Of a stretch of DNA of 64,000 nt, positions 13,451 to 63,935 are shown piece by piece. Where the stretch lies: the NCBI GenBank assembly GCA_963971405.1, contig OZ020484.1:39888770-39952769 (forward strand), given 5' to 3'. Each line of letters opens with the position of its first letter. Position 1 is the stretch's first letter. A program made the translations under genes and the position numbers. Under the pieces are notes generated by a model, which ran no database searches, was not told the origin of the DNA, and saw only the letters and a list, made by a program, of their open reading frames with translations. The DNA is from Psococerastis gibbosa. Taxonomy: Eukaryota; Arthropoda; Insecta; Psocodea; Psocidae.

Positions 13451-13754
13451 TCAGCAAATCACAGACCCCTATAACACTAGTGTTATACAGTATATTCAAT
13501 GGCGAAGGGTACCCCAAACTCGCCAAACGTGCATTCAAAGCCCACAGACTTGCTAAGTTGGCATTACGGAATACAACTTCAAATCCATCGTAATCACCCA
13601 TTGTGAATAAGTTACTTAGTAAAGTTTTACGTTATATCATTAAAAAAAAAACACACAACCGGTTACGACTCACGCCATAGTCAAGTGTAAGAAAACTGAA
13701 TAGACCCCTAGCTATTATGTTTTGCTGCCGGAGAATAAGAAATCACTAAGACAC

Positions 13755-13904
13755 TGGCTACATTTTCTGGCCATGCTTCGGAGGGCATGTAAAGCAGGCG
13801 GTCCCGGGCCTTCCTAGTTGAGTGTAAGAGAGGGCTTTATAGCCCTAACTCCGCTAGGTTGGCTTAGTAATAGAAACAACTGAAAGTCCTCATTTATTTA
13901 TTTA
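13755..13904 (+). mobile_element. SINE family B, 5' truncated
   Basis: Lacks the tRNA-like head; starts in the body (CATTTTCTGGCCATGCTTCG) and ends in the TTTA-rich tail. Confidence 0.85.
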
Positions 13905-14025
13905 AGAGACAGACGATTTGCGTAAACTGTAGAAAAGGGCTAAAAAAGGCCATTTTTCCGCATGTCCGAAATGATTATTTTCGGGGGGCTTAAAAACTTG
14001 TTACAAAGATGAGCCTAGGTCATAA

Positions 14026-14142
14026 GGCGCGGTTTCCACCGACCGGCTAGGGCTAAATACAAATACGGTGACGTGGTAACAGACATTCAAGACTTAGGCG
14101 GGGTTTCCACCCACCTCGCATTGCAGAATGCAAATGACATTG
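14026..14142. mobile_element. Family A MITE, left fragment
   Basis: The first 117 bp of the element, cut at GACATTG by the LINE insertion. The complete copy is at 15331-15725. Confidence 0.85.
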
Positions 14143-14857
14143 GCTTCCCTTCTTGCGCTGGACTCGAGTAGCTACGAGTCCAAGCAGGTGTGGGAATGTA
14201 TGCTTGCACTCAACGCATTGGGAGTGACGAATAAAGTCACCCTCATGTGGGTTCCAGGACACGCCGGGATCGAAGGCAATGAAAATGCCGACGCCTTGGC
14301 GAGAGAAGGGAGCGCGCTACCCTTCATTGGGCCTGAACCCTTCTGCGCCTTCCCGAGAAACCGCCAAACCCTAGAGATTGGCCTATGGGAAGAAAAGAGA
14401 AAGGAAGCATACTGGAAGTCTGTCACAGGCCACAGACAATCCAAAATATTCCTCACTCACTCTAAGAGCTATACCGCCAAAGCACTGAACCTCAGCAAGC
14501 CTGAACTTAAGGTACTTACAGGTGCACTCACAGGACACTGCCACGTGAACTACCATTTAAAGAACATGGGTAAAGTCTTGAATGACACCTGCCGATTCTG
14601 CAAAGAAAAGGCTGAGACTGCTGAGCATATCATCTGCTCGTGTCCGGCAGTAAAGAACAGACGGCTGCTAGCAACGTCCTCTTGGTTTCTATCACCAAGG
14701 GAGGCTTGCCAGTTGGCCCCTGGGCAGTTGTGCAGGTTTTTACGGGACCTGCTGACTGACCAGGACTAAAAGTACGGGGATTCACAATAGATCTTTAAGG
14801 TCAAAGTGAGCCAAGCTCAAGTAGCAGCATCGCCCCATTACTAATCTAAATCTAAAT
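14143..14857 (+). mobile_element. 5'-truncated LINE tail with RNase H domain
   Basis: The open frame, ending at 14769, starts within an RNase H domain (VTLMWVPGHAGIEGNENAD, with its late conserved H and D). It ends with a CCHC-like zinc motif (CRFC, then H and C, around 14590-14645). About 90 bp of 3' UTR follow, ending in an AATCTA simple repeat typical of LINE 3' ends. RNase H plus this C-terminal motif fits the I, LOA or Outcast group; the clade is not certain. The reading frame is intact, so the copy is young. Confidence 0.85.
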
Positions 14858-15447
14858 CTAAGTTGGCATTACGGAATACAACTTCAAATCCATCGTAATC
14901 ACCCATTGTGAATAAGTTACTTAGTAAAGTTTTACGTTATATCATTAAAAAAAAAACACACAACCGGTTTCGACTCACGCCATAGTCAAGTGTAAGAAAA
15001 CTGAATAGACCCCTAGCTATTATGTTTTGCTGCCGGAGAATAAGAAATCACTAAGACACTGGCTACATTTTCTGGCCATGCTTCGGAGGGCATGTAAAGC
15101 AGGCGGTCCCGGGCCTTCCTAGTTGAGTGTAAGAGAGGGCTTTATAGCCCTAACTCCGCTAGGTTGGCTTAGTAATAGAAACAACTGAAAGTCCTCATTT
15201 ATTTATTTAAGAGACAGACGATTTGCGTAAACTGTAGAAAAGGGCTAAAAAAGGCCATTTTTCCGCATGTCCGAAATGATTATTTTCGGGGGGCTTAAAA
15301 AGTTGTTACAAAGATGAGCCTAGGTCATAAGGCGCGGTTTCCACCGACCGGCTAGGGCTAAATACAAATACGGTGACGTGGTAACAGACATTCAAGACTT
15401 AGGCGGGGTTTCCACCCACCTCGCATTGCAGAATGCAAATGACATTG
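14858..15447. repeat. 590-bp direct repeat, right copy
   Basis: Matches 13553-14142 at 588 of 590 positions, read base by base. It starts exactly after the LINE tail repeat and runs into the complete MITE. Confidence 0.95.
15060..15209 (+). mobile_element. SINE family B, duplicated truncated copy
   Basis: Second copy of the SINE at 13755-13904, carried by the 590-bp duplication. Confidence 0.85.
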
Positions 15448-15725
15448 ACGGAAATGTTTGTTTTTCTTTTTATAGAAATCTATCAAAATGTTTGTAATTA
15501 ACATATCCCATGACGCCATTTTTTAATTTTAGTTTGTTTGTTTGTGATTTTACTCTATGATCATTAATCAATTTTAACTATGGCATAGAGTAAAACAAAC
15601 ATTTCCGTCAATGCCACTTGCATTCTGCAATGCGAGGTCGGTGGAAACTCCGCCTAAGTCTTGAATGTTTGTTACCACGTCACCGTATTTGTATTTAGCC
15701 CTAGCCGGTCGGTGGAAACCCCGCC
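15331..15725. mobile_element. Composite foldback MITE (family A), complete copy
   Basis: Both ends carry GGTTTCCACCGACCGGC-type inverted repeats; flanks are TAA on the left and AAA on the right. The inner repeat unit is CCTCGCATTGCAGAATGC. This is the element that the LINE tail interrupted. Confidence 0.8.
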
Positions 15726-17104
15726 AAAAGAGCACACTAAGACATAAGGCAATGCTAGGCTAGGGTACGAACTTCTGGATCGCCCCTTGTACATAGTATG
15801 TGCAATAAAATGAATTTTCAGCTCTAGACTCCTTGCGAAACACATTCACTAGTGTAAGGAAAGGGATGGAAAAGATAATTTACACAGTCATGATTATTCT
15901 TCGGATTTTAAATAAGACTCATCCATACCGACTGTAGAAATTCCTCTATAAGTGTTGGAATTTAGAGGAGACGAACTGAATTTGCTCATTTAGAAGGCAT
16001 TCAAAGACTCTAGCCTCATCTTCAGAGGAATCAGGACCACCCGTGGTACCAGTAAATTACTCTTTGAAGGATGCCCAAGCTTCTACATTTTATTAAATTT
16101 AATAGCACAGACAGTATTGTGGATTATAAATAAACCGAAATAAAATAAATAGTAAAACGTCAGAACTTTTCCGCCCCCGTAAAAATTCGTATTTCTTGCC
16201 GATGAGTTACCAGAAACCATTTGAAGGAAATATGATTGTTCTTAACTTAGGTGTGGGACATTAGTCTAGCCAAATATTTATCAATGACGCCTTTTGTTTT
16301 CCAGTTTGTTAAATTTGGATTGATGTCAGATGACGCGGCAACGTTTGCCGCCAAGTCGACGGTAGTCTTTTTTATTTAAATTAGAACAGTGATTCAAATC
16401 AGCTCGGCGCGTATTTTACTGCTTGTTTTGTCACTGTTTTCTCATGAACGCCTCTAGTGCCATGGTTTCCGGCCCGTGAAGGCTGGCGGGCTACTCAGTT
16501 TGAATTCAATCTGGATCGCTGGTGAAAGTCACACTTATTCTACTAGAATGGTGTGTTGGTGCTACAGAGGTCGGAGTTTTTAAGGAAGAGCATATTCCAT
16601 GATGGTCTAACCAAATAGAATTCCCTTCGAAGGGATATCAAATCGGCTTCATCCGTGTTGAAATTAAAAAAAAAAAAAAAAAAAAAACAGTTACAAGAGG
16701 ATGTACGAATTTTCCAGAAGTGGATGACTTGATAGTGGAAGTGGATGTTTTTATTAGCATTTGTGCTATTTCTGCACACACTACTACTAGGCCGCCTACT
16801 GCTACTGTCGTCCGAACATCCAATTCAGGGGCCCGAGTCCCGGAGGTGCTCCTCCGGGAAAAATTAAATAAAGGAGCAAAATATGCACTTACAGCTAAAT
16901 TCAGCAAACAGTTTATATATGAATTTCTTAAAAAGCCGCCCACGAGAAGGTAATAAAATATAAGCGAAAGATATACATATAAACTATTTTGAAACACCAG
17001 TAATTAAAAAAGAATATCTACAATTCTAAGCGAATGCCATGAAAGATTAAAATCATGTGAACTACTTGGCTGCCAACCCATTCTACAATCAATATATTAT
17101 TTTA
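15726..17104. other. No gene seen
   Basis: Mostly unique-looking. Contains a 23-base A run (about 16665-16687) and a small GC hairpin near 16838-16858 (CCCGGAGGTGCTCCTCCGGG). No convincing exon. Confidence 0.35.
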
Positions 17105-18422: not shown

Positions 18423-19764
18423 TCAGAATCAGAGTCAAATAAGAATTAAATACAAAAATCAGATATTGCGAGTGTCCGATTTGCTTATCGTTGGGGAGCT
18501 GGGAGAATGGTGAACCCCGCGAATGTAAAAAACACCAAGAAGTCCAAGAAAATATTTCTATCAGTTTTAAAATAATTAACTGAACATTTTTACAGCCTTC
18601 CTGAATGAAAGTAGTATTTACAGCCACCTTGAATAAATGCGGAACTTTCTAGAATTTCGTGCAAAATAACTTATATTAAAATGTCGCTTTTCTCATTTTA
18701 ACACCAATTCCATGATTTTGTTTCGGAATATAAAGAATTACGAATGAAAATTAATTTCAAATTTTGTTTCTCTTGGTAGTATTTTATGGTAGAACCTTGC
18801 AAATTACAATATTTCCAATTTACAACAAGATATAAAACGGTATAGGCCACGGCAAACGGGTATTCCATAGAACTATCAAATTTTCAACAACGAAGTCGTA
18901 ATTTCAAATCCATGTCATTCGAATCTGCGGGCACAGACTCGATAATGAGACCTAGACAAATAAAATCTGCAGTAAAATCCATGACAACAGGTTCCAATAC
19001 CACAAAAGTGTCAATGAAGTTGTACCAATCTTCAACATAGAAATTTCATATTTTCATATTCTTTATTAGTTTTTGGCCTTAGCAACAACTGGGTACCCAT
19101 GTTCAGTGACCGTGCCCCCAGCCGGGCGGAACCCGTTTTTTCAGATTATGTATAATAATAAGAATTTGATCAGTGCCATACGAAAAGCGTTTGAGTTAAA
19201 TTTCTTGTGAAAGTTAGTACGGGTTAACCATGTAGCCCATGATTCACCGGACAATTTGTGCTCCTACTGCGCCCATTTAAATACCAAAACGCGGGGAACC
19301 CGAAATTTGATACGTCCATTCAGGTAGCCTGTGGTATAGCGTGTAGCGCTGTCAAAGTACCAACATAGCCGATTAAATTATGAAACCATGGAAACATTAG
19401 GTAGAATCAGGAGCTGATTTGTTTGCCTTAGTTTACCTTATGACCTTCCAATTTTAACTGTAATGATCTCACTATGTATACGACTACCAAGTCTTTCATT
19501 TAGACTCGCCAAATGAATTAGTATGATAATGAACTGTTCAGTAACATTAATTTATGAAATTAATGTGGCATAAGAGCGAACTGGAATTGGGTTATTTAAC
19601 TTACGGTCTCATAATGTTGTATATTTGGGCCTCTGGGTTTTGTATTACAATTTATACTGCAAACGAACATTCCCAGATGGGGCATTTCTAAGAGATTGAC
19701 TAGACATCTAAAGGGTCCGCAAAGGTTTTCTCCCATACCTCAGTGATAGTGAAAACTGTACCAA
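18423..19764. other. No gene seen
   Basis: No exon, RNA gene or repeat recognised. Confidence 0.35.
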
Positions 19765-20148
19765 GGCGCCCATTCCATCGACCGGTTAGGGCTATTTACA
19801 AAAACCGTGACGTGGTAGCAGACATTCAAGACTTGGGTGCCGTTTCCACCGACCTCGCATTGCAGAATGCAAATGACATTGACGGAAATTAGAATTTTTC
19901 TTTTTATAGAAATCTATTAAAATGTTTGTACTTAACATATTCCATGGCGCCATTTTTTAATTTTAGTTTGTTTGTTTGTGATTTTACTGTATGATCATTG
20001 ATCAATTTTAACTATGGCATAGAGGAAAATAAACATTTCCGTCAATTCTGCAATGCGAGGTCGGTGGAAACGCCACCAAAGTCTTGTATGTCTGCTACCA
20101 CGTCACCGTTTTTGGAAATAGCCCTAGCCGGTCAATGGAATGGGCACC
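19765..20148. mobile_element. Composite foldback MITE (family A)
   Basis: 384 bp with CAA on both sides (19762-19764 and 20149-20151), inverted ends GGCGCCCATTCC / GGAATGGGCACC, and the nested inner inverted repeat. Confidence 0.82.
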
Positions 20149-20334
20149 CAAGTAATTTTTTCACAATGAGTGACAGCAAGTTTAACAATATGACTAAGGA
20201 GACAATTATGTACATACAGTACCTCAGTGCATGGGTATACAAGGAAATATCATTACCACAGAAACTAAACGAGGTGCCATTGTTTAAATGAGAAAAACTC
20301 TGAAAGGGTCCTCACTCTACCAAAAAGTATTTCA

Positions 20335-24369: not shown

Positions 24370-24585
24370 CACAGTACAACAGCACTTCTTAGAGTACGTT
24401 CAGATGACAAGCGCATACATACATTTTAGTCAGGCTGTACACATGTTAACGCGCGTTTTAATAAAGCACGCGTTGAACGCTGCGCTAGCGCTCGGCAGTT
24501 GTCAACGCGCGCTTTGAGATCATTGGTTTTCTTTATATTTCTGTTCAGTTGAGCGCGCGCTTTCGACGCCGATAGGCGTATTTAA
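24370..24585. repeat. CpG-rich foldback element, left part
   Basis: Starts near GTTCAGATGACAAGCGC, with repeated GCGCGC/AACGCGCG blocks. It continues at 24966-25140 beyond the MITE. Confidence 0.55.
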
Positions 24586-24965
24586 GGCGCCCATTCCATT
24601 GACCGGCTAGGGCTATTTCCAACAACGGTGACGTGGTAGCAGACATTCAAGACTTAGGTGGCGTTTCCACCGACCTCGCATTGCAGATTGCAAATGACAT
24701 TGACGGAAATGTTTGTTTTTCTTTTTATAGAAATCTATTAAAATGTTTGTAATTAACATATCCCATGAAGCCATTTTTTAATTTTAGTTTGTTTGCTTGT
24801 GATTTTACTGTATGATCATTGATCAATTTAAACTATGGCATAGAGGAAAATAAACATTTCCGTCAATTCTGCAATGCGAGGTGGAGACGCCACCTAAGTC
24901 TTGAATGTCTGCTACCACGTCACCGTTTTTGGAAATAGTCCTAGCCGGTCAATGGAATGGGCACC
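24586..24965. mobile_element. Composite foldback MITE (family A)
   Basis: 380 bp, TAA on both sides, inserted inside the CpG-rich foldback element. Confidence 0.82.
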
Positions 24966-25140
24966 TAAGGGTTCTTCAGTATCAGTCCGTCCAGAACTCG
25001 ACCGAAATGGAAACCGAAGCTTTTAATACGGAACTGCTGGACGCCTGACAAGCGCGTGTCATGTAAACACTATACAAAAATGTAACGCGCGTTCAACGCG
25101 CGCTGAGCGCTTGCAAATAAATGCTCGGAAAGTGTCAACT
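24966..25140. repeat. CpG-rich foldback element, right part
   Basis: Contains GACAAGCGCGTGTCATGTA and AACGCGCGTTCAACGCGCGC, the counterpart of the left part. Confidence 0.55.
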
Positions 25141-52731: not shown

Positions 52732-52955
52732 ATATCTTTGATTCCAGCTGACTGGATTTGTTGGAAGCTCAGCTATCTGCATAATTGCATAACCATTTTA
52801 TTGTAGAAGTTTAATAGGCGATGTACCTACTTAAATACCGTACTTTATAATAGAAGATTATCTAGAAGAGTACCTAGGTGGTCTGACGGTACCTGCCCCT
52901 TTTTGTTGGAGGAAAATGTAGCACACATAAACAGGAATGCAGGAATACAATCTTA
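52732..52955. other. Spacer, no gene seen
   Basis: Short unique stretch between two MITEs. Confidence 0.3.
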
Positions 52956-53343
52956 GGCGCCCATTCCACCGACCAGCTAGGGCTTTTTACAAAAACAGTG
53001 ACGTGGTAGCAGACATTCAAGACTTGGGCGAGGTTTCCACCAACCTCGCATTGCATAATTGACGGAAATGTTTATTTTCCTCTATGCCATAGTTAAAATT
53101 GATCAATGATCATACAGTATAAAATCACAAACAAACAAACTAAAATTAAAAAAAATGGCGTCATGGGATATGGTAAGTACAAACATTTTAATAGATTTCT
53201 ATAAAAAGAAAAATTCTAATTTCCGTCAATGTCATTTGCATTCTGCAATGCGAGGTTGGTGGAAACGCCACCTGAGTCTTGAATGTCTGCTACCACGTCA
53301 CCGTTTTTGTAAATAGCCCTAGCCGGTCGGTGGAATGGGCGCC
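52956..53343. mobile_element. Composite foldback MITE (family A)
   Basis: 388 bp; TTA on the left and TAA on the right, so one flank has mutated or the duplication is really TA here. Inner unit in reverse orientation. Confidence 0.8.
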
Positions 53344-53837
53344 TAAAGTGTTCCCGAAATATTCCGATCCAAATTGATCCATAAACATAATAATGCAGTG
53401 AGATTTTATGACACCACCTTCAGTTCTATTTCACGACAGTATGTCATGTTATTTGCCCCCGGATTGATCTCACCCCTTACAAGTTCAACATAGGAGCTTG
53501 GTTCATGAGACACCATCTGTTTCATCAAGATTAAGCAACAAAAGAATAAAACAATCGTAAATCTGAATATTTAGATCCCGGTTGGTGGCCCGGCCATTCC
53601 CTATATGCATTCAATATCCACGGGCATAATCTAATGTTGGGTTTTTAGTATTATTGCATTTTTTCTTGTTATAGCAGACAAGAGCTCTGCTTTCTGAATT
53701 TATTGAGTCATCTTGATTTTTTTGTCAAGATATTTGATTGCTAAAGTTTTTTTCGCTAAGAGCACGAGAACCAATGGACAGCATGATAAATATATGAGCC
53801 GTATTTAAGTGAATTTTATGGTATACTATATAATTAA
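53344..53837. other. No gene seen
   Basis: Nothing recognised. Confidence 0.35.
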
Positions 53838-54857: not shown

Positions 54858-54925
54858 GGATTAATTTTCTGTATTTCTATGATTAGGCAAACCGTATTCA
54901 CACTTCTGTCAAAATAAATGCTTAA

Positions 54926-55318
54926 GAGGATATGCTACGTAGAAAATGAGCACCCAAATTTGATGTTTTTATGGACTTTTCATTTTTTATTTAATTAACT
55001 CAGGAAGTTATTAAATATTTGGCTCATGGAAGTTGTAGAAGACTACTTCGTGCATCATATAATCGGGTATTTTTACTTTTCGGTTTTGTAATTCTTCCAA
55101 AAATCCCAGAATACGCATAATTTTAGTCCATTCTGGTATATATGAAAGAGCTAAGGTACCAAACATTTAATATTTGTTATTACATGATGCATGAAGCAGT
55201 CTTCTACAACTTCCATGAGCCAAATTTTTATTGACTTGCTTTGTTAATTAAATAAAAAATAAAAAGTCAATAAAAACAACCAATTTTGAGGTGCTCATTT
55301 TCTACGTAGCATATCCTC
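54926..55318. mobile_element. piggyBac-type foldback MITE, copy 2
   Basis: TTAA on both sides (54922-54925 and 55319-55322); ends GAGGATATGCTACGTAG and complement; same interior landmarks as 23871-24259 (GAAGTTGTAGAAGACTACTT). Confidence 0.8.
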
Positions 55319-55322
55319 TTAA

Positions 55323-55559
55323 GTATTGGCAATATAATAATATTATCTTTCCGATTGTCTTATCTCAATGGTTTGAAGGTGTAGGTTACTGTGTGTATTA
55401 ACAAATGCAACTTCAACCCCCAGGATCCTAAATAATCATAAAAATTGATCCAGTGCTGTTGGATAGGATAAATTGAGAGAGCCAAAATTGGGGTGCCAAA
55501 TTATCCACCCCCCCCCCCTACTTCGAATGCTTATCGTTACGCCATTGAGTATTGCTACT
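55323..55559. other. Spacer, no gene seen
   Basis: Contains a C run at about 55508-55518. Confidence 0.3.
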
Positions 55560-63224: not shown

Positions 63225-63935
63225 GAGGAGGAATTTAAACAAAACGGGGACACTCACACCTACAACACGAGGCAACGGGGAGACCTTGTAAGGCCAGCGC
63301 CACGCACAGACAAGTGTGAGCGACTGGATCCTATACTACAAGGTTTCGCTTACCTTTGAAAACTCCCGATTGAACTGAGAGCGGCGAGAAATGCTTTTAA
63401 CTTCCCTAAATTGCTTAGAAACCAACTCTTAGAGAAAGCTTTCTACACTGTCACTGAGGCACTAGCACAATGACAATGACAGAAGTACCTGATTTTGACG
63501 ATTTTACTTTATACATTCTTGTGAATTACCTGTTGATTACTTGTATTGTATAATTTAACAGAAATATATATATATATATATATATATATTTATTTATTAT
63601 TTACACTGTTCTGAGATCGTTCCCAATCTGGTTTCTGTATCTCTTCCTTACAATACAATACAATATATATTTCCTTTAAATTATACAATACATGTATATA
63701 GTATAAGATAAAATCGTCAGAGTATCGTCAAAATCAGGTAGTTCTGTCATTGTCATTGTGCTAGTGCCTCAGTGACAGTGCAAAAAGCTTTCTCTAAGAG
63801 ATAGTTTCTAAGCAATTTAGGGAAGTTAGAAGCATTTCTCCCCGCTCTCAGTTCAATCGGGAGTTTTCTAAGGTAGGCGAAACCTTGTAGTATAGGATCC
63901 AGTCGCTCACACTTGGCCTTGGTCTTCTCCTTCTT
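63225..63935. mobile_element. Inverted pair of CR1-like LINE tails (family L)
   Basis: The + copy (63225-63520) reads HTYNTRQRGDLVRPAPR, KLPIELRAARNAF, EKAFYTVTEALAQ and a stop. The - copy (63705-63935) is its inverted counterpart. An AT repeat (about 63563-63590) lies between them. Confidence 0.7.

Follow-up and report, generated by a model that had tools for sequence, protein, structure and literature searches.

A probable 590-bp target-site duplication around a truncated Lian-like LINE, with long duplications at three sister insertions

A truncated 3′ end of a LINE stands between two long direct repeats in the stretch of insect DNA analysed here (64 kb, hereafter the window), and this raises the question of how a single insertion could come to be bordered on both sides by the same 590 bp. 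Target-site duplications of LINEs are usually ~5-20 bp long; 590 bp is outside this range, although the short length is usual rather than required. An earlier note on this DNA had described the repeats as near-identical, matching at 588 of 590 positions without indels, with a LINE end (14143-14857) that abuts both of them exactly. Realignment bore out both descriptions. The only two mismatches are at repeat positions 113 (A/T) and 445 (C/G), no indel is present, and the repeats stop at the LINE's two ends. The note had also pointed to an overlap of three bases, CTA, at the junction; there is indeed an overlap at the 3′ junction, but it comprises four bases, CTAA. Beyond this, the 5′ junction is itself ambiguous by two bases, TG. 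The features of the locus are collected in Table 1.

Table 1. Features of the locus in window coordinates, followed by the four insertions with long duplications.
Feature	Position	Strand	Remark
Left copy of the probable 590-bp target-site duplication	13553..14142	+	588/590 identical to 14858-15447
Right copy of the probable 590-bp target-site duplication	14858..15447	+	588/590 identical to left copy
5′-truncated 3′ end of putative Lian-like LINE	14143..14857	+	end of RNase H, zf-RVT-like stretch, 3′ UTR
Simple LINE tail, AATCT/AAATCT units	14841..14861	+	CTAATCTAAATCTAAATCTAA
CTAA common to tail and target	14858..14861, also 13553-13556	+	putative first-strand priming site
TG fitting both target and LINE	14141..14142	+	2-base overlap, 5′ junction
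Dispersed repeat inside duplicated segment	13751..13905	+	second copy 15056-15210
Foldback MITE, part of target	15330..15728	+	four other window copies read through 15447/15448
L028, 187-bp duplication			1 mismatch
L034, 486-bp duplication			2 mismatches
L009 (window copy), 590-bp duplication			2 mismatches
L035, 640-bp duplication			0 mismatches

The LINE piece between the repeats retains the end of an RNase H domain (Pfam, E 9e-8) and a zf-RVT match that, at 25.2 bits, lies below the Pfam cut-off of 27.5. Its stop codon is at 14767-14769 and is followed by a short 3′ UTR; AATCT units like those of its tail are present in the tails of most sister copies. A longer stretch of coding sequence is available from sister copy L032, whose 590-aa ORF piece contains Pfam RVT_1 and RNase_H. 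This piece is 50% identical, over 83%, to an Aedes protein named Lian-aa1 retrotransposon protein in UniRef, and 49% identical, over 99%, to another Aedes protein that its source names an R1 element, so that the source names disagree on the LINE's identity. The other named protein matches, among 120 of 480 listed, include proteins from the psyllids Cyamophila willieti and Diaphorina citri. Judged by the reverse transcriptase and RNase H of L032, in which the likeness to Lian-Aa1 of Aedes consists, the window element appears to be a Lian-like LINE; this placement was made by protein similarity together with source names that disagree. Lian is a member of the LOA clade.

Relatives of this LINE are numerous and closely alike. 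A 37-base pattern from its 3′ end matched the genome (a 409-Mb assembly of 68 contigs) at 193 places when up to two mismatches were allowed (91 on the plus and 102 on the minus strand; positions listed for 100 of the 193), while the reversed control pattern gave 0 genome matches. In a search with the LINE piece, the best 40 of 257 candidates were scored, and all 40 are at 100% (rounded) identity. With such near-identical copies, the family appears to be young.

What did the target look like before the insertion? The full 590-bp segment was found twice in its own genome, both times at the window locus (40 of 1758 candidates scored), in a search that skips very common words, so that uniqueness of the rest of the segment is not implied. 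The remaining 40 listed matches all lie inside repeat positions 198-359, which correspond to the dispersed repeat. At the other end of the segment, the presumed second-strand break at 15447/15448 falls within a ~400-bp foldback MITE, in its left arm, of which 118 bp are duplicated at 14025-14142. At the break point, the MITE sequence is read through in the right copy and in the four other MITE copies of the window, and the left copy passes into the LINE. Because the MITE copies read through the break, the pre-insertion site most simply consisted of the left flank, a single 590-bp segment and the remainder of the MITE. The two repeat copies do not differ anywhere in the 118 bp of MITE arm, and they have in common eight variants that are missing from the four other MITE copies; sharing these private variants, the 590-bp copies derive from one parent sequence. 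At the window site, the single-copy state is comparable on the MITE side only, in the LINE-free MITE copies; in this one assembly, no LINE-free allele of the site turned up.

The 64-kb window contains five copies of this foldback MITE, each of ~390-400 bp (1043-1435, 15330-15728, 19764-20158, 24584-24969 and 52949-53346). It also contains long self-complementary foldback stretches at 63311-63915 and 54917-55327, with arms ~80-83% alike. A search for RNA families in the 64-kb window gave no match.

We then turned to sister insertions of the same LINE. We examined 85 loci, of which 30 came from the LINE-piece search, 28 from the 37-base pattern and 27 were fetched by position; they are not taken to be a subset of the 193 pattern matches. 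Repeats in the pattern set were removed (L056, the same locus as L009, and L068, the same as L011). Excluded from scoring were 30 loci with a 5′ end outside the stretch examined, 12 of these from the LINE-piece search, and L060, a flank duplicate of L059. The scored set therefore consists of 54 loci with both LINE ends in reach and is a set of copies short of full length, in which the detectable duplication length is limited by the right flank, to between 780 and ~1550 bp.

Several classes of outcome were observed. At 36 of the 54 scored loci, the duplication is 8-18 bp long, most commonly 12 bp, and two of these 36 have one mismatch. One locus has a duplication of 44 bp. At another 13, the scoring rule called no duplication; by eye, at least three of these (L031, L040 and L090) have a duplication of ~10-13 bp shifted by extra bases. 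At the remaining four loci, the duplications are 187, 486, 590 and 640 bp long, and intermediate lengths, above 44 and below 187 bp, are not represented among the 54 scored loci. The direct repeats adjoin both LINE ends at each of the four long loci, with one extra base at the 5′ junction of L034. Three further copies with long flanking duplications were thus found, a check that the earlier note had proposed.

Two explanations of these lengths were rejected. When left and right flanks of different loci were mis-paired (540 of 2862 possible pairs), a single pair matched over 8-10 bp and no pair over a greater length; with nothing above 10 bp in 540 mis-pairings, a chance repeat is excluded, and so is sloppy flank matching. 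A fixed long stagger of the R9 type was rejected because the long duplications vary in length and the commonest duplication is 12 bp.

The sister copies bear directly on whether the window structure is real. An assembly artefact could string together a haplotype that has the LINE and another that lacks it, and 99.7%-alike copies beside one insertion are a familiar sign of unpurged haplotypes. However, nothing in such a join would set its limits precisely at the truncated 5′ end of the LINE and at its tail, and the same geometry is present at three further loci. We regard this artefact as very improbable. Given three sister copies with similar long duplications, the structure is most likely a real, uncommon LINE outcome and not an assembly mistake.

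A pre-existing 590-bp tandem duplication, with the LINE landing later precisely where the two copies meet, would lead to the same final arrangement of parts. This order of events is, if anything, a shade less probable still, since it needs an exact border at four separate loci of different repeat length, and since, across the four long cases, only 5 of 1903 positions distinguish one duplicate copy from the other. Neither a haplotype assembly error nor a tandem duplication that trapped the element, both put forward in the earlier note, is an easy explanation for four loci whose repeats end at the LINE ends. Divergence among the duplicate copies is low and falls within the range seen between LINE copies, the LINE parts of the long cases being 99.5-99.8% identical to L032, and as far as sequence comparison goes this is consistent with duplication at insertion. 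At L034 it carries little weight, because other copies of its target repeat resemble each other just as closely.

Since some targets of this LINE are themselves repeats, single-copy versions of a site can be read in the same genome. The 486-bp segment of L034 is present at 20 genome places, two of them at L034 itself, and the 18 others have the segment once. We rebuilt the L034 empty site from 100 bp of left flank, the 486 bp and 100 bp of right flank (686 bases) and compared it with two of the 18 relatives, which lie at other genome places and are not alleles. The rebuilt site is identical at 684/686 and 683/686 positions, and each flank is identical at 100/100 bases; full flank identity in both relatives means that the LINE is absent from them. 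The two L034 copies have G at position 468, where both compared relatives have T, and each L034 copy has one further change of its own. The shared G indicates that both L034 copies most likely come from one pre-existing segment.

That these two relatives have the segment once is also evidence against a tandem duplication that preceded the LINE. Ectopic joining of two repeat copies at L034 was considered as well and is thought unlikely, as both copies share a variant that is missing from the two compared relatives. The repeat that carries the 486-bp segment is a young one of unknown type, found at C14:20140391-20142833 and at 18 other places with listed identities of 98-100%.

We conclude that the best account of the window locus, to which we assign a probability of roughly 85%, is ordinary target-primed reverse transcription whose completion used a break in the second strand hundreds of bases distant. 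The reading of the repeats as a target-site duplication with strand breaks ~590 bp apart, as the earlier note had it, is supported by the three sister copies, whose 187-, 486- and 640-bp duplications are placed alike, and is supported further in the 486-bp case by the two relatives of its target that carry the segment once and have no LINE.

As we infer the events strand by strand, a Lian-like LINE would have inserted by target-primed reverse transcription, starting from a bottom-strand nick at ...CTAA^GTTGG. The freed 3′ end would have served as primer for reverse transcription of the LINE RNA, starting in its AATCT-type tail. A break in the top strand would have arisen 590 bp downstream, in contrast to the ~12 bp downstream that are usual for this LINE, and the 3′ end at the remote break would have been joined to the truncated cDNA with two bases of overlap. 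Each side would thereby have retained one strand of the 590-bp interval, and filling in of both single strands would have left one copy on each side. The LINE endonuclease would have had no part in the remote break, which would be an unrelated nick or gap.

The junctions were compared between the long and the short cases. At the 3′ junction, target and tail match over 2-4 bases in 4/4 long cases and in 26/37 short ones. The sequence before this junction is A/T-rich in both classes. Of its last three bases, the first is T in 25, the second A in 29 and the third A or T in 36 of the 37 short cases, and the three are TAA (L009), TAT (L028), TAT (L035) and AAT (L034) in the long ones; this first-strand A/T motif is partly built in, because the junction point is anchored at the end of a tail-like run. 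The second break differs between the classes. The duplication ends in A or T in 33/37 short versus 1/4 long cases (Fisher p = 0.012), and in 24/26 versus 1/4 (p = 0.009) in the cleanest subset, in a comparison that is post hoc and has a long class of n=4. Priming was probably normal in the long cases, and the second half of the insertion probably used a break 187-640 bp away.

The 5′ junctions are less uniform and bear on a further alternative, in which MMBIR-like template switching copied the segment twice and captured the LINE cDNA in passing, without a normal first-strand nick. Two of the four long cases have a 2-base overlap at this junction, as such switching would suggest, a third has an extra base and the fourth shows no clear overlap; extra bases at the 5′ ends of sisters L031, L040 and L090, seen by eye, show that error-prone joining takes place in this LINE family. 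The 3′ side, in contrast, is ordinary in all four, with an intact tail and a 2-4 base match to the target. We consider this alternative unlikely, and it departs from target-primed reverse transcription with a remote second break chiefly in the way the first strand was opened.

The four long cases all belong to the 18 scored loci that the LINE-piece search supplied, with 0/36 in the other scored loci. The LINE-piece search favours copies keeping ~700 nt or more of the LINE, and the other 36 loci were taken in listing order from contigs C1 and C2 and are mostly shorter elements; the window locus was also on the positional/pattern list and is counted with the LINE-piece group. Because the long cases are confined to loci selected by LINE piece, their frequency is uncertain, and we give no frequency for the family. 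Copies keeping at least 700 nt make up 26 of the 54 and include all four long cases, and none of the 28 shorter copies is a long case. A rank test of element length between long and short duplications gave p = 0.08. The tie of the long cases to a longer element could stem from cDNA length or from sampling alone.

A broader picture, which we offer tentatively and with some doubt, is that this LINE has two finishing routes. One would use a near cut, at ~12 bp and with a last base that is usually A or T, and the other a remote break that is not made by the endonuclease. The remote route would then account for a regular minority of germ-line insertions, those with longer cDNAs, and through it the LINE would steadily give rise to small local duplications.

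Other features of the sister copies were also observed. Seven of the 54 scored sisters are insertions of ~72 nt, with a 5′ end at the base matching window position 14780, ~10 nt after the stop codon; L057, L065, L077, L086, L090 and L092 share this start, and L039 starts one base later. These insertions may represent a truncation hot spot or a very small SINE-like unit. A predicted RNA fold of the LINE 3′ UTR, as a cause of such a hot spot, was not significant (z -0.77). By eye, extra DNA precedes the LINE 5′ end at four loci, as poly-A in L031 and L048, ~80 bp in L040 and ~9 bp in L090, and may reflect template jumping. Finally, L059 and L060 (C1, ~44.62 and ~44.63 Mb) are ~10.5 kb apart, with the same flanks and 100% identity over 1.5 kb upstream, and this pair appears to be a later duplication of the whole locus.

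The second half of LINE integration has been called very poorly understood in a section of PMC6895275, and the survey described in part of PMC2912911 gathered duplications of 5-30 bp only. Surveys restricted to short duplications miss long cases. A young family with near-identical copies is a natural set for comparing short and long outcomes of insertion, and the present results indicate that LINE activity outside cultured cells, too, produces duplications of several hundred bases. Among the titles and abstract openings covered, mostly from non-subscription literature, there was no report of long duplications in natural Lian/LOA copies.

The kind of event is already known, and it entails no new mechanism. 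The window LINE family belongs to the class of LINEs with long duplications, having cases above 100 bp beside a majority of short ones; what is new is its occurrence in genomic copies of a LINE that appears Lian-like, the window case being accompanied by three sister cases and by single-copy relatives of one target. The earlier note had treated the length as exceptional. It is so relative to most sisters, but long duplications are documented for L1 and ZfL2-2.

For human L1 in HeLa cells, sections of PMC5223499 report duplications above 100 bp in at most 10% of events. In cells deficient in nucleotide excision repair, they report duplications that range from hundreds to thousands of bp (median 1495 bp); the inserts are mostly at typical first-strand sites, and use of a more distal, unrelated nick is proposed. 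Truncated L1 with extremely long duplications in HeLa is also mentioned in a passage of PMC2912911. The likeness of our cases to L1 in repair-deficient cells lies in the long duplications. The difference is that those arose in cultured human cells, whereas ours are insect genomic copies with 187-640 bp beside a 12-bp mode.

For zebrafish ZfL2-2 in wild-type chicken DT40 cells, part of PMC2666801 describes one of 25 insertions with a 1228-bp target-site duplication and 24 of 25 with alterations of at most 20 bp. Here the likeness is the two-class pattern of lengths; ZfL2-2 is, however, another LINE, and it was observed in a cell-culture assay. For rotifer R9, a 126-bp duplication is given as the stagger of this element, as cited in a section of PMC6895275. 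R9 and the present LINE are alike in having strand breaks far apart, but 126 bp is characteristic of R9, while the long duplications here vary from 187 to 640 bp and most duplications are ~12 bp.
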